Shown: piece by piece, positions 1-39,500 of the stretch
Layout: every line of letters begins with the position of its first letter
How positions within the stretch are numbered: position 1 is the first letter of the stretch
Origin: Bernardetia sp. ABR2-2B
GTDB taxonomy: Bacteria > Bacteroidota > Bacteroidia > Cytophagales > Bernardetiaceae
NCBI RefSeq assembly: GCF_037126435.1
Contig: NZ_CP147020.1
Coordinates: forward strand, 3,824,001-3,888,000
Reading direction: 5' to 3'
Length of the DNA: 64,000 nucleotides
Notes under the pieces: generated by a model
Database searches by the model: none
What the model was told of the DNA's origin: nothing
The model's input: only the letters and a program-made list of their open reading frames with translations
Position numbers and translations under genes: made by a program

Positions 1-293
1 TTAAATGTTTTGATTTCTACAGCACTCCAATTTTTCAAATCATTGAAAAGCCATTTTTTTTTGGGTAGAAATAAATAAGAAACTGCTAATTCTTTCTTAG
101 AAAAATGAAATGAGGTTGGCATAAAAGCAATTTTGAGCAGTAGCAATAACACAATAATCGTTGCTATACCAATAATTAAAAATTTCCAATTTGACTCTAG
201 AGAAAGCGACCAAACAGCAATACCAATTACTCCGATAAAAAAAACAGCTAGAGAAAAAAGTGTTTGAAATTTGAAAGAAAGTTTATTACTCAT
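1..293 (-). CDS. Two-helix membrane protein, 3' end cut off by window edge
   Basis: Reading leftwards from an ATG at 293, an open frame of 97 codons runs off the window edge without a stop, so the C-terminus is missing. It begins MSNKLSFKFQTLFSL, then has two closely spaced hydrophobic segments (about residues 8-30 and 37-58) and a soluble part starting near PTSFHFSKKELAVSYLF. Two N-terminal helices followed by a short beta-rich part resemble small bacterial membrane proteins with a PH-like domain, but that is only a resemblance. The next gene on the same strand starts upstream (947-321), and the 27-bp gap between them suggests one transcript. Function unknown. Confidence 0.6.
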   Translation of the reverse strand, partial: MSNKLSFKFQTLFSLAVFFIGVIGIAVWSLSLESNWKFLIIGIATIIVLLLLLKIAFMPTSFHFSKKELAVSYLFLPKKKWLFNDLKNWSAVEIKTF

Positions 294-320: not shown

Positions 321-947
321 TTATTCTTCGTTTTGTTCTTCTTCTTCTATTTCATCATCATCTTCTACGTCTTCATCGTTTGACTCTTCTATCAAATTAG
401 TGGCAGAAGCAATAGACTTAGGCAATGCAAACTCACTAGATGGCAATAATTTATCTACATATAAAAGCAAAATATCCAAATGCTCAAACATCTCTTCGGC
501 ATGTGGGAGTAATCTTTCTCCATGAGGCAGTAAAATCTCACTATGAGGAAGTAATTTTTCAGTGTGTGGAAGTAATATATCTTTATATCTTAAAAGCAAT
601 TCTGTGTAAGGCAATAAAATATCTAAGTACGGCTCAAAAAGATGAAAGTACGGCAACAACTCTTCAGAATGAGGCAAAAGTTGGTCTGCGTATGGAATTA
701 ATTTTTCTGCATGAGGAGCTATCTGGTCAGCATACGGCAAGAGTTCGTCTTTGTAAGGCAACAGTTTTTCTATATGAGGCGCAAGCAAAGATGATTGAGG
801 CAATAAATTATTAGCGTGTGGCATTAGCTCATCTGCATGAAAAAGCAAACGAATACTGTGAGGTAGCAAAGAAGGCGCATTTTTGAGAAGTTGAGGCGCA
901 TTTTTGGCAAATCCTTTTATTAAATTTCTATATTTTTTATTAGCCAA
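321..947 (-). CDS. Heptad-repeat protein ([HY]xxxLLP)23 with acidic tail
   Basis: 208 residues. Residues 16-176 are 23 uninterrupted 7-residue units of the form [HY]-x-x-x-L-L-P, for example HAEKLIP, YADQLLP and HTEKLLP. His or Tyr holds the first position and Pro the last in most units. The N-terminus is short and basic (MANKKYRNLIKGFAK). There is no signal peptide or membrane helix. The last 32 residues are strongly acidic (EESNDEDVEDDDEIEEEE). A Pro every seventh residue rules out an ordinary coiled coil and suggests short repeated turns or helices forming a solenoid-like rod; this is inference. I do not recognise a family or function. The downstream neighbour on the same strand is the truncated membrane protein gene at 1-293. 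Confidence 0.85.
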   Translation of the reverse strand: MANKKYRNLIKGFAKNAPQLLKNAPSLLPHSIRLLFHADELMPHANNLLPQSSLLAPHIEKLLPYKDELLPYADQIAPHAEKLIPYADQLLPHSEELLPYFHLFEPYLDILLPYTELLLRYKDILLPHTEKLLPHSEILLPHGERLLPHAEEMFEHLDILLLYVDKLLPSSEFALPKSIASATNLIEESNDEDVEDDDEIEEEEQNEE

Positions 948-1589: not shown

Positions 1590-2783
1590 TTACTTCTTCA
1601 AGTTTTCAATAATGAGAGCCGAAGCACCACCACCACCATTACAGATAGCAGCCAAGCCGTATTTTCCATTATTTTGGCTCAAAACATTTGTAAGTGTAGT
1701 AACGATTCTTGAACCCGAGCAGCCAAGTGGATGCCCAAGAGAAACTGCACCACCATTTACATTTACGTTTTTTGGGTCAATATCTAGTTCTTTGTTAAAT
1801 GCCATCGTAACAGCCGAAAATGCTTCATTCACTTCAAAAAAGTCAATGTCATTTTTCGTAAGACCTGCACGTTTTAAGGCTTTTGGTGCTGCAATTGTTG
1901 GTGCAGTCGTAAACCATTGTGGCTCTTGTTCTGCATCTGCAAAATCTACAATTCTAGCTATTGGAGTAAGACCTAACTCTTTTACTTTCTCTCCACTCAT
2001 CAAAATAGCTGCCGAAGCACCATCATTGATTGTAGAAGCATTTGCTGCCGTAACTGTTCCGTTTGGTGTAAAGACAGCTCTTAGATTAGGGATTTTTTCA
2101 AATTTTACTTTTTTGTACTCTTCATCCTCATTTACAATTACTGCATCCCCTCTGCGCTGTGGAATTTCTACTGGTACAATTTCGTCTTTAAATTTACCTG
2201 CCTCTGTTGCATTTTTTGAGCGAGTATAAGATTCTATAGCATAGGCATCTTGCGCCTCACGAGTAAACTTATATTTTTCGGCTGTTTTATCAGCACTTAC
2301 ACCCATAGCAGAGTTGTCATACGCATCAGCCAAGCCATCACGCATCAGCCCATCGATAAGTGTTCCGTGTCCGTAGCCATACCCACCAAAACGAGCTTTA
2401 TCTAAATAAAAAGGAATATTTGACATACTTTCCATTCCACCAGCCACAACAACATCAGAATGACCTAACATAATACTTTGAGCTGCAAACATAATAGATT
2501 TCATGCCCGAAGCACAAACTTTATTTACTGTCGTACATTGAACTGAGTATGGAAGACCAGCCAAAACAGCAGCCTGACGAGCAGGAGCTTGTCCAAGATT
2601 TGCTGAAATTACGTTACCCATATATACTTCTTCTACTTCTTTAGGGTCAAGGTTGATTTTTTCTAAAGCTCCTTTTATGGCTGTTGCGCCAAGCTGTGTA
2701 GCTGCAACGGCTGCCAAAGAACCATTAAAACTACCAATAGGAGTACGAACTGTTGAGACTAAGTAAACTTCTTTGATTGTCAT
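1590..2783 (-). CDS. Acetyl-CoA C-acyltransferase (thiolase)
   Basis: 397 residues, the normal length of a type II thiolase. It catalyses reversible thiolytic cleavage or condensation of acyl-CoAs (beta-oxidation or acetoacetyl-CoA formation) in the cytosol. The active-site residues are visible: nucleophilic Cys90 in VNKVCASGMKS, His351 in GGAVSLGHPLGCSGSR and Cys381 in ICNGGGGASA. The N-terminus VYLVSTVRTPIGSF is typical. Sequence alone does not separate degradative 3-ketoacyl-CoA thiolase from acetyl-CoA acetyltransferase; the compact length and MESMSNIPF motif favour acetoacetyl-CoA thiolase. ridA follows on the same strand. Confidence 0.93.
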   Translation of the reverse strand: MTIKEVYLVSTVRTPIGSFNGSLAAVAATQLGATAIKGALEKINLDPKEVEEVYMGNVISANLGQAPARQAAVLAGLPYSVQCTTVNKVCASGMKSIMFAAQSIMLGHSDVVVAGGMESMSNIPFYLDKARFGGYGYGHGTLIDGLMRDGLADAYDNSAMGVSADKTAEKYKFTREAQDAYAIESYTRSKNATEAGKFKDEIVPVEIPQRRGDAVIVNEDEEYKKVKFEKIPNLRAVFTPNGTVTAANASTINDGASAAILMSGEKVKELGLTPIARIVDFADAEQEPQWFTTAPTIAAPKALKRAGLTKNDIDFFEVNEAFSAVTMAFNKELDIDPKNVNVNGGAVSLGHPLGCSGSRIVTTLTNVLSQNNGKYGLAAICNGGGGASALIIENLKK

Positions 2784-33570: not shown

Positions 33571-36500
33571 TTAATTTATAATCAGCTGCTTAACAAAAGA
33601 TTGCTTGTCAGAATATGCTTTCAGGACGTACATCCCTTGAGCCATTTTGCTAAGATTGATTTGTTTTTTGTTACTTCCTTTTTTGAAAGATTGCGTATAA
33701 ACAACTCTACCTGTAGCATCAAAAATAGTTATATCTGTATCTTCCAACAAAGAAGCTCCAAATTCTATTACAAAATTTCCGTCTGAGCTAGGGTTTGGAT
33801 AAACATTCCAGCCAGTTTGTTTTTTGTCTTCTTCTCCTGTTACTACTTCGATAACTCTGAATGAAACAGTTCTGGTCTGTGTTGTACAACCAGTTTGATA
33901 TATAACAACTGCTGAATAATTACCACTTTCTTTTGGAGTAATCGTTGTTTGTCCATCAAAAGCTGACAATATTTCGTTATTTAGTTTCCAAGAAACAGAA
34001 GCTATATTCTGGTTGTTTCCATTTTGTTCTTCTACAAAAAGAGTAGTTTCAGAAGTACGCAAATAAGCCGTCGGAACTTTCAAGATTTTAATTTCTGTTT
34101 CATTAGAAATCAATTCACAATTATTCTGACTGATTTTTACCTTATACTTTCCAGCTATTTTTGTAGTTAGTTTATTTGTTCCATTACTGATAATTAAACG
34201 TTCATTTCTTAACCATTGATAAGTTACATTTGGAATAGATTCAGTAATCAAAGTTACCTCTGTATTAGGACAAATGATATTAGCAGAAGATTGCATAAGC
34301 AGTTCAGAAGGCAAATCTGTAACTGTAACATTGATATTTGTTTCAGCACTACAACCGTTTTGAGTCGCTCTCAATGTATAATTTCCACTTTGAGTAACTA
34401 TAAGGCTATTTTCTGTTCCTACGATATCATTATCAAATAACCACTCATAAGTTGCATTTGAGTTTGATTGTAATGCAGAATTAGCAATATTAATTGTGCC
34501 ACTTTCACAGAAACCAACATTGTTTTGTTGTTGTATTTTTGATAAAGGAGCATAATTTAAAAGAACTCTTATAGGCTCTGAAATTTCAATACAGTTTCCT
34601 CTTTCAATTCTGACTTGATAGTTTCCAGAGAAATTAGCTTGATAATTTTCTCCACTTCCTACCACTATTCCACTTCTAAGCCAAGTGTAAGAAATTGCGT
34701 TATCTACTCTTTGTGCTTGTAAAGTTGTAGAACTCTGACAAGAAATAAGCTCATTTTCTCCTAAAATAGTTGCTTCAAAAACTGGCTGAACAATTACTTG
34801 AACAGCAGTTTTTTCACTTTCTCTTCCGTTACTAAATACACTTACATAAAAGGTTGTACTTTGAGTAATAGGTGGAAGTTCTATTGTTGAATTATAACTT
34901 TCAAAAATTGGATCAGCAGCATCTTGATTTTCGTAAATACGATAGGTTGCTCCTGTGCTTTTTACTTCAGCTATTGCCTCTTGACCTTCACAAATCTCAT
35001 TTGTAGAAATCAAAATTGGTGCTTCTGGTAAAGTGCGCTCTGAAGTGAGAACAGGCTGTGAAATAGAATTTCCATTTATTGCAATTACTTTATATAGATA
35101 TAAAATATCTGGATTCAAGTTTTCGTCTAGGTAAGAAATAATTGTTCCATTTGTAAGAGTAGCAATTAAAACACCATTTCTATAAATACGATAACCTGTG
35201 GTTGCTCCAATTGGAATATTCCAACTTAACTCAATTTGAGTAGTAGAAATTACCTGTGCCTCAAGATTTGTAACTGGGTTAGCTATACCTCCAGTATTTC
35301 CACCTCCTCCAGAAGTAACTTCTGAAAAATCAATCTGTAAGTTATTAACAGAGAAATTAGTAACATCTGCAGTAGTAACACCTTGAGTAAATGCAGTATT
35401 GTTAAACTCTACACTCAAATCATTTACATCATCTGAGTTTGTATGTGAAGTAGCTGTTCCCAAAAGATTGAAAGCTAGTTCTCCCTCATTTTGATAAACA
35501 ATAGAAGCTGTAAGACCAGTAGGAATATTTGTAACGATTGCTTTTCCAGTTGTTACAAAATCTTCTCCATTTGTTCCTTCGAAGATTCCACAAGGCAAAC
35601 TATAAATAGTCAGTTCATTATCTATTTGTCCAGAGGTTGGATTACTTTCTGTAAATGTAGTAGCTGAATAAGTTAGCTCTACAACTGGTGTAACAATTAC
35701 CTCTTGTGTCGCTGTTGCTGTATTTCCACTATTATCAGTTACTGTCCAAGTTACCATTGTTGTTCCGATAGGGAAAATGGTAGGTGCATCGTTTGTAGTA
35801 GTTGCAACACCACAGTTATCATCAGTTATTGATGTTCCTAAATCTACATTTGAAGCTGTACAGTTTCCATTATCTGCATTTACAGCTACATTTAAAGGTG
35901 CTGTAATTGTTGGATTTTGAGAATCTGTAATAATTACCTCTTGTGTCGCTGTTGCTGTATTTCCACTATTATCAGTTACTGTCCAAGTTACCGTTGTTGT
36001 TCCGATAGGGAAAATGGTAGGTGCATCGTTTGTAGTAGTTGCAACACCACAGTTATCATCAGTTGTTGATGTTCCTAAATCTACATTTGAAGCTGTACAG
36101 TTTCCATTATCTGCATTTACAGCTACATTTAAAGGTGCTGTAATTGTTGGATTTTGAGAATCTGTAACAATTACCTCTTGTGTCGCTGTTGCTGTATTTC
36201 CACTATTATCAGTTACTGTCCAAGTTACCGTTGTTGTTCCGATAGGGAAAATGGTAGGTGCATCGTTTGTAGTAGTTGCAACACCACAGTTATCATCAGT
36301 TGTTGATGTTCCTAAATCTACATTTGAAGCTGTACAGTTTCCATTATCTGTATTTGCTATAATATTTGAAGGTGCTGTAATTATTGGATTTTGAGTATCT
36401 GTAACAATTACCTCTTGTGTCGCTGTTGCTGTATTTCCACTATTATCAGTTACTGTCCAAGTTACCGTTGTTGTTCCGATAGGAAAAGTGATAGGTGCAT

Positions 36501-39500
36501 CGTTTGTAGTAGTTGCAACACCACAGTTATCATCAGTTATAGGTATTCCTAGATCAATGTTTGATGATTCACAATTTAAAGCTATGTCTATTGGTGCAGT
36601 AATAGTTGGGTTTTGATTATCAGTAACTGTTACATCTTGCGTACCTGTTGCTACATTTCCACTATCGTCTGTTGCTGTCCAAGTTACCGTTGTTGTGCCA
36701 ATAGGAAAAATACTAGGAGCATCATTTACTATACTCGCAACACTACCACAATTATCAGATGTATAAGGCGTTCTTAAGGTTATACTAGCTGTACAACTTC
36801 CTGTGTCTGTATTTGCATTTATATTATTGAATATATAAATCGTTGGAGGTACATCTTCTGTAACAGTTACATTCTGTGTAGCTGTTACTGTATTTCCTCC
36901 ATTATCAATCACAAACCAAGTTACAATTGTTGTTCCTACACGAAAAACAGAGGGAGCATCATTATATAGCTCTGCAATTCCACAATTATCTGAAGTAGTT
37001 GGTGTTCCCAAATCTACAAAAGTATAACAATAACCAACAAAACTAGGTGTTATAATATCTACAGGAGCTACAATAGTTGGGTTTTCTGTATCTGCTACTA
37101 CATTTATGATTTGGGTATCAGTAGATGTATTTCCTGCTTCATCTGTTACTGTCCAAGTTACAGTGGTTATTCCAGATGGAAAGAAATAAGGAGCATCATT
37201 TGATACATCAGAAACAGTACAATTATCACTAGCTACAGGAGTACCTAATTCAATATCATATCCTCCACAAGTAGAAATATCATTTGGTGCAATAATAACA
37301 GGTAATTCATTATCTACTTCTTCTCCCTCTACATCAAATGAAAAAACAGGATTATCACAATCGTTTGTTATTACCTTTAATTTTGCTTTTTTGATACCAC
37401 TAGATCTTGGGTCAAAAGTAACAGAAAGAGAATAATCTTCTCCCTGTTGTAATGTTAAAGGTAAAACAGGATTGTTTTCTATTCTAAAACTTGCATCATT
37501 ACGAATTGTGTTTTGAAGTGAAATCTGTTTAATAACTAAAGCGTCTGTTCCTATGTTTTCTATTTTATAAGATACATTTAACGTATCGACACAATTAACT
37601 GCTCCAAAAGAAGTAGAGTCTGCAAGACTTGCTATAGTTTGTCCATTACTAATAGCTGTACTATTTCCACTTATTTGTATTTGTGCATTAGAAACAGCAT
37701 TTGCTCCATATTTAAAGAAATATGCACTTCCTCTGCTTGATTGTTCTTGACTTGCTCCAACAAGAATAGTATTATTCCATACACTCATTTCTTTTCCAAA
37801 ACCTTGTCCACCTACTGCATCTGTAGGAATAATTTTATCAAATTGATTCCAAGTAGAATTTTGATTTGTAAATACATATACAGCACCTGACGAAATTCGA
37901 TTATTTTGATTCGAATAATCTCCAACCATTAATGTAGAATTATCAATATAAACAGAGCTTCCATATTGATAACTGTAATTGTCATTTGGTTGAATATTAT
38001 TTTGTGCATTCCAAACGTTATTTTCATAAGTGTATACGTGAGCATTTTGACTTGCTCCAATCGCTAATTTATTATTGTGCAAAGAAATAGATTTTCCAAA
38101 TGCACTTGCACCACTTAGTGTAAGTTTTGCGTTTCTATCCCAAGAGTTTCCATCTTTTTCATAGACATAGACAGCTCCACTACTAGATTCACTAGGAGCA
38201 CTTACTGCTATCTTTTCTTTGTGAATAGATACTTTGTCTCCAAATTGTGTGTAGTCATACCTTGAACCATCAGGTATAAATGTTTCTATAAGGTTACCGT
38301 TATCGTATGCTGATGGTGTATATAAGAATGCTCTATTTGCATCACTTCCAACTACTATATATTCTCCGTACACATCAACAGACTTACCAAACTTACGTGC
38401 ATTACTATATATGTCTCGTTTTACTTTACTCGTTTGTTCCCAAGCGTTATTAATCTTATCAAACACATAAACAACTCCTCTTCTACTTTGGTAAGGTTGT
38501 CCTTTACTTGGAGCACCTACAACAATTCTATTTTCATGAATAGCAACGCTATATCCGAACTCATCTCTAAGGTAAGCATCATCAGCCATAAGTTTTGCTT
38601 CTTGTATCCACTCTCCATTTTGCTTGTGATAGACATATACAGCTCCTGCATCTGCTGCTGCTTCGTCGTCTTTGTATTTGCCTATTACTGCATAATCTTG
38701 ATACAAGGCAACTGAATAGCCAAAATTATCACTACTTTGTGGATTTGAATCAACTACTTTTTGATGTTCAACAATATTACCGATATAAACCTGCTCACCT
38801 TTGATAGCATATTCATATACACTAACTCTACAATCACTATTATTTACTTGCAATGTCGCTTCATGAACGCCCCATTGAGCAGCAGAAAAAGTAACATTAA
38901 TCGTATATTGTTCATTTGGTAAAAGGCTTATAGGAAAGACACTATTATTTAATAAAAAGCTTGTAGCCGAATTACCAGAAAAAGTAATACTATTTATCAC
39001 TAATGTATCAGTTCCTGTATTTTTCAACGTATAAGGAAGTGTACTCTCACAGCCTATTGTCAATCCAAAATCAGTATAGTCAGTTAACGAAGTTATGGTA
39101 TTTCTATGAGGAATAATAGTATTGTTTCCTTTTACCTCCAACTTTGGAAGTTCTAGAGATGTATTTGCACAAGCATTAGACGTAGTCGAATATGGCTCAA
39201 TGTTTAATGTAGAATTATATTCTGTTATGAAAGCATCTCCATCACCACCAATATTAATAGAACCAAATACACTTCCCCAATAATTGTTCGACGCATCTGC
39301 TTCTCCATCTCCATGTATAATTGCATTATCATTACAAATAAAATTATTATATTGAATACTTTTTGAAATAGTATTATTAGAGTTGTTGTAATAATAGTAA
39401 TAAGCACTTCTACTATTATCTATACCAATATTATTTTTATGAAAAGTATTGCAGCTAATATTTAGGATTTTGTTGGCAACTTCCACTCCAGTCTCTCTAT

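Follow-up and report, generated by a model that had tools for sequence, protein, structure and literature searches.

A conserved heptad-repeat protein of Bernardetia with proline in most units: a candidate curved amphipathic helix

Background

Exchangeable apolipoproteins (A-I, A-IV and E) are built of amphipathic helical repeats with a period of 11/22 residues, often with proline at the repeat start, and curve around lipid. Phasins are the amphipathic granule-coat proteins of polyhydroxyalkanoate (PHA)-making bacteria, while Perilipin 4 carries an 11-residue repeat without regular proline. More generally, proline in soluble helices usually lies on the outer, convex side, and where helices are curved around a hydrophobic core it is found opposite the hydrophobic face.

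Here we describe a bacterial protein that resembles each of these systems in part. It is encoded in a stretch of 64,000 nucleotides from Bernardetia sp. ABR2-2B (the window) and repeats with a period of 7 residues, whereas the apolipoprotein repeat is 11/22 residues long. With Perilipin 4, which is reported to coat a hydrophobic object, the human lipid droplet, by an exceptionally long and repetitive amphipathic helix (PMC5889406), it would share just such a helix. No sequence match links it to phasins, and its binding to granules is a proposal made below. With heptad coiled coils it has in common the period of 7, a hydrophobic stripe and a predicted helix; unlike them, it contains proline in 16 of its 20 clear units, and each unit is hydrophobic at three positions, including a pair of adjacent leucines.

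The heptad gene and its pattern

The gene and its parts are as follows.

321..947, minus strand: heptad-protein gene, 208 aa, TTG start; an uninterrupted open frame kept in relatives
903..947, minus strand: basic head, residues 1-15; Y6, R7, L9 and K15 invariant in 8/8 orthologues
444..884, minus strand: gap-free heptad block, residues 22-168, 21 heptads; 147 ungapped columns in 8/8 orthologues; predicted helical
321..389, minus strand: acidic tail, residues 187-208, with the stop codon; D/E-rich; pLDDT under 50

As the sequence-only reading had described, the head is basic (K4, K5, R7, K11 and K15) and an acidic tail begins at about residue 187. This tail is D/E-rich in six of the seven genus members and varies in length; the orthologue from the sister genus (genome G008) has none. 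No obvious signal peptide was seen by eye. Start codons among the eight orthologues were TTG in six cases and GTG in two, never ATG (the G008 start was picked by alignment, and an earlier TTG is also present in its frame). The non-ATG start, common to all eight, may keep expression low.

The period itself is real. Over residues 15-170, 60 identity pairs were counted at lag 7 compared with 16.6 +- 3.5 in shuffled sequences (10,000 shuffles, maximum 31), and lags 14 and 21 almost equalled lag 7 in strength (59 and 56 pairs). The earlier description of this period as strict was overstated, as the exact [HY]xxxLLP unit occurs in only 11 of the 20 clear units, and the pattern is better called regular. 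These 20 units, counted by eye from the unit list, span residues 29-168 and follow the consensus P-[HY]-[AS]-[DE]-x-L-L; the 23 uninterrupted heptads originally reported are reached only when weak units at residues 15-28 and 169-175 are included. H or Y is present in 19 of the clear units (the remaining one has Q), proline in 16 (substituted elsewhere by F, R, E or L) and both leucines in 14.

Conservation

Matches to the heptad gene were found in all seven genomes of the genus and in one of four other genomes of the family (8/11 in total). A broken frame in related genomes, which the sequence-only reading had named as evidence against the protein, was not seen in any of the eight orthologues. 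The number of units, whose variation among close strains had been proposed as a check, was compared across species (one genome per species) and is fixed, with zero indels in the heptad block; from this it follows that the protein does not belong to the variable-number repeats.

When the window copy was compared with each of the six other genus members, dN/dS was 0.044-0.135 at a partly saturated dS of 0.64-1.40; in the comparison with G008 dS was saturated and no ratio was obtained. Second-position changes within the genus numbered 5-7 in about 170 codons. On the opposite strand, each of the three frames has at least two stops in the first 171 codons in 8/8 orthologues. Judged from these sequence comparisons, the frame at 321-947 is a real, conserved gene that is under purifying selection within the genus.

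With the window copy and the G008 orthologue aligned in register, identity was 0.56, compared with 0.37-0.47 for 16 whole-heptad shifts. Even at positions 2-5 of the heptad it was 0.39 in register and 0.14-0.32 when shifted. In-register identity being above the shifted values, each unit has kept its own identity; the choice of H or Y, for instance, is the same between the genera in 12 of the 14 units that could be compared (p 0.01 by permutation). The family, as far as found, appears confined to the genus of the window and one sister genus, and the protein is, on this comparative evidence, an old and strongly conserved orphan with an unusual repeat.

Searches for known families

The claim that the protein belongs to no known family held in the libraries searched (Pfam, NCBIfam, PHROGs, PDB and BFVD), where neither a cut-off nor a significant E-value was reached. 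The Pfam scan of the window protein listed only Importin_rep_6 (E 0.38), hence neither Phasin_2 nor the apolipoprotein family, and NCBIfam gave no match with the same query. Among the orthologues, that of G008 matched Importin_rep_6 (E 0.0042, 17.8 bits, below the cut-off of 23.9), Shikimate_dh_N (E 0.023, below cut-off) and, weakly, phrog_33764 (E 0.014), and that of genome G003 matched DUF5071 (E 0.043, below cut-off). NfI_DNAbd_pre-N appeared on 7 of 13 repeat slices, at best with E 0.0087, again below cut-off. Searches of PDB by sequence, with both the protein and the full profile, returned nothing significant, and comparison of the predicted fold with PDB and BFVD gave no match at E<=0.001, with 13 weaker ones listed.

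When a 35-residue repeat profile was compared with PDB, apolipoprotein A-IV came first (E 0.0038 and 0.026); RLLPHAN and RLEPYADQL are examples of the matching stretches. Of three control profiles, the reversed one gave E 0.0015 with a designed protein and the two swapped ones gave 0.69 and 1.3. Since the reversed control surpassed A-IV, the E-value of the latter is no evidence of kinship, and A-IV was rejected as a significant sequence relative. The 11/22 period of apolipoproteins was likewise not found in the heptad protein, which repeats at lags 7, 14 and 21. The RLLPHAN-type local motif that it has in common with A-IV is a resemblance of design only.

In mobile and viral sequences, the protein search yielded 46 plasmid and 7 phage records; the best E was 2e-4, and query coverage stayed below 80% in all of them. 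One plasmid match was located among phage-tail genes, opposite to a hypothetical protein, and the match in a 635-kb phage record was a coiled coil without regular proline. The 98 pattern matches in viral contigs included no relative. As for the literature, no such protein was named in the titles listed.

Predicted helix and its possible curvature

AlphaFold2, run on the 8-sequence alignment, predicted helices at residues 2-23, 25-36, 38-120, 122-155 and 157-167, with pLDDT of 85-92 over residues 61-140 (mean pLDDT 70, pTM 0.57, tail below 50). According to this model the protein probably forms one long helix. A proline in every heptad had been taken to exclude an ordinary coiled coil. Proline is indeed frequent, and the heptads as a set are not free of helix breakers, as those of coiled coils are; the exclusion is nevertheless weakened, both by the predicted helix at 38-120, which runs through the prolines, and by heptad positions 3, 6 and 7, which would suit a barrel-type bundle with proline outside.

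The same three positions are hydrophobic and form one stripe along the helix. Proline lies opposite this Leu/Leu/Ala face in 8/8 orthologues: with proline set to zero, the hydrophobic moment pointed 167-175 degrees away from it at 100 degrees per residue and 180-187 degrees away at 102.9 degrees per residue, again in 8/8 orthologues, which are related and thus not independent. When ten angles were compared, the native sequence had its largest moment at 102.9 degrees. An opposition of 167-187 degrees in eight related sequences is a feature of curved amphipathic helix coats, and we regard it as a likeness to such coats, not as membership among them. As proline usually lies on the convex side, the helix should bend around the Leu/Leu/Ala face. 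In a coarse kink model with bends of 15-30 degrees, the radius of the helix axis ranged over about 8-40 A with the kink and twist chosen, and 23 heptads made 1-2.7 turns.

The best reading of these data, to which we give a probability of about 40%, is a curved amphipathic helix that would coat or wrap a hydrophobic surface. According to this model, about 20 heptads of the P-[HY]-[AS]-[DE]-x-L-L type would make up one long amphipathic alpha-helix, in which proline on the polar side would bend every heptad toward the hydrophobic face. A curved belt, or else a wide superhelix, would result, with the hydrophobic side inside. Such a belt could adsorb to, coat or wrap a hydrophobic object within the cell, for example a membrane patch or a lipid or polyester granule. 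The basic head might make the first contact with this object, and in Bernardetia the acidic tail might hold the coated objects apart. A stronger version, namely that a single continuous alpha-helix with proline in most heptads is wound into a ring or wide superhelix, hydrophobic inside, and represents a new helical architecture of one bacterial family, is in our opinion unlikely.

The main rival is an oligomeric rod or barrel, in which several copies would pack via the Ala/Leu/Leu stripe (as in an a-d-g coiled-coil barrel), with proline and charges outside; this assembly, fixed in length, would act as a ruler, scaffold or spacer. The 147 residues kept without indels in 8/8 orthologues suit a ruler, the conserved H/Y choice per unit points the same way, and the top PDB match of the full profile was a designed coiled-coil protein, sc-apCC-6-LLIA, although at E 0.55 it was not significant. 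Regular packing is disfavoured by proline in 16 of the 20 units, and neither the fold comparison (at E<=0.001) nor the sequence searches gave a significant match. We consider the rod or barrel possible but rather doubtful.

Genomic neighbourhood

The genes next to the heptad gene in the window are given below.

3..293, minus strand: small protein with two long hydrophobic stretches, the next gene downstream; first 97 codons in the window, 145 aa in the genome
1083..1472, minus strand: RidA (Ribonuc_L-PSP), upstream neighbour; Pfam E 2.1e-39
1590..2783, minus strand: acetyl-CoA C-acyltransferase (thiolase), two genes upstream; TIGR01930, 460.8 bits, cut-off 240.55

RidA is located upstream of the heptad gene in 7/7 genus genomes, and by eye the thiolase gene follows beyond it in six of these seven loci, the seventh (L007) having another frame there. 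A 21-bp repeat of two copies is present at 1484-1527 of the window, between the RidA and thiolase genes. In G008 the neighbours are different, namely a PAS/GAF-type sensor and a membrane protease (by eye). No diverged copy of the heptad gene was detected at the RidA locus of G007, G008, G009 or G010, where about 1.5 kb on each side of the best RidA match was inspected for ORFs with a minimum length of 70 or 90 aa.

The small membrane protein lies directly downstream in 7/7 genus genomes at a spacing of -11 to +30 nt, and both proteins are well conserved. This might indicate that the two are partners, with a Bernardetia gene pair in which a PH-like protein holds the heptad protein at the inner membrane. 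The downstream protein has a match to the bacterial PH-like family bPH_7, which is weak (E 0.021, 14.8 bits, cut-off 25), and its structural model is poor (pLDDT 57). Moreover, it gave no match in the four other family genomes, and G008 keeps the heptad protein all the same. We therefore regard this partnership as improbable.

PHA genes and the granule reading

In its most concrete form, the curved-helix coat would be a phasin-like layer on polyhydroxyalkanoate granules. The genome of the window encodes a class III PhaC (TIGR01836, 468 bits, above the cut-off of 365). Adjoining it is a PhaE-like gene, whose match to TIGR01834 (E 3.8e-8) stays below the cut-off; the heptad gene is located outside this phaE-phaC cluster.

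L087 5125-7902, genome of the window: PhaE-like and class III PhaC genes

PhaC_N was found in 10 of the 11 family genomes, whereas Phasin_2 (PF09361), the only phasin family searched in the genomes, was found in none of the 11. The presence of PhaC together with the absence of Phasin_2 makes a phasin-like role possible without singling it out. The thiolase two genes upstream of the heptad gene also speaks for the coat reading, the different neighbourhood in G008 against it. All three family genomes that lack the heptad gene possess PhaC_N, and the draft genome G005 has the heptad gene and gave no PhaC_N match, so the heptad gene does not track PHA synthase.

Repeat DNA and a possible origin of the heptads

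In the phylum, the orthologue profile matched 10 of 395 genomes, one of which was the window's own, and in the order it matched 28 of 390, eight of which were orthologues. Eighteen non-orthologous loci were inspected with TRF. In 17 of them (L028, L037, L043, L029, L064, L067, L072, L063, L071, L065 and L097-L103) the match overlaps a DNA array with a period of 7, 21, 42 or 63 bp; the remaining one, L096, reads like a sensor-kinase coiled coil and contains a short array of 21-bp units (2.8 copies). Wider homologues in Bacteroidota were thus rejected for the inspected loci; three others (L009, L010 and L012) were judged from ORF lists alone.

Most other Bacteroidota loci that were inspected contained arrays of 7 or 21 bp, the translations of which mimic heptad proteins. 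For example, at L028 1-390 a 21-bp array at the contig end translates to heptads such as SLIPHSD, which are near the consensus of the heptad protein and non-homologous to it, and at L043 1118-1840 a 21-bp array carries, antisense to the profile match, a coiled-coil-like frame whose heptads are of the AELNKHN type. Elsewhere in the window, a 237-bp unit is repeated in 3.6 copies with 97% matching (35689-36538); these are possibly the repeats of a large surface protein.

In the heptad gene itself, TRF at score 30 reported only three short rows with periods of 3, 18 and 8 and no 21-bp array, and in the G008 orthologue it found nothing. Synonymous codons showed no clear sign of a former DNA repeat either, as the observed value was reached in 151 to 1684 of 2000 shuffles in the eight orthologues, and a recent repeat that the codons would still reveal was ruled out by this test. 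The look-alike translations of the 21-bp arrays would suggest that the heptad frame, too, is functionless, being low-complexity sequence or repeat DNA in translation; this is highly improbable given the lack of such an array or of shared codon memory in this gene, its low dN/dS and its length fixed in two genera. In the unlikely stronger version given above, the protein may descend from a 21-bp repeat, subsequently frozen at a fixed length by selection: such repeats occur at several places in the phylum, and in the codons of the heptad gene no trace is left.

Conclusions

If the curved-helix reading is true, the heptad protein would be a natural helix of fixed length in which about every second turn carries a bending proline, and would test how much proline a continuous helix can take up. 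The coat of polyester or lipid bodies would then have a candidate protein in a group which has PHA synthase genes and in which no Phasin_2 was found. Even without a coat role, this is an orphan family whose conservation is strong and whose repeat is unusual.
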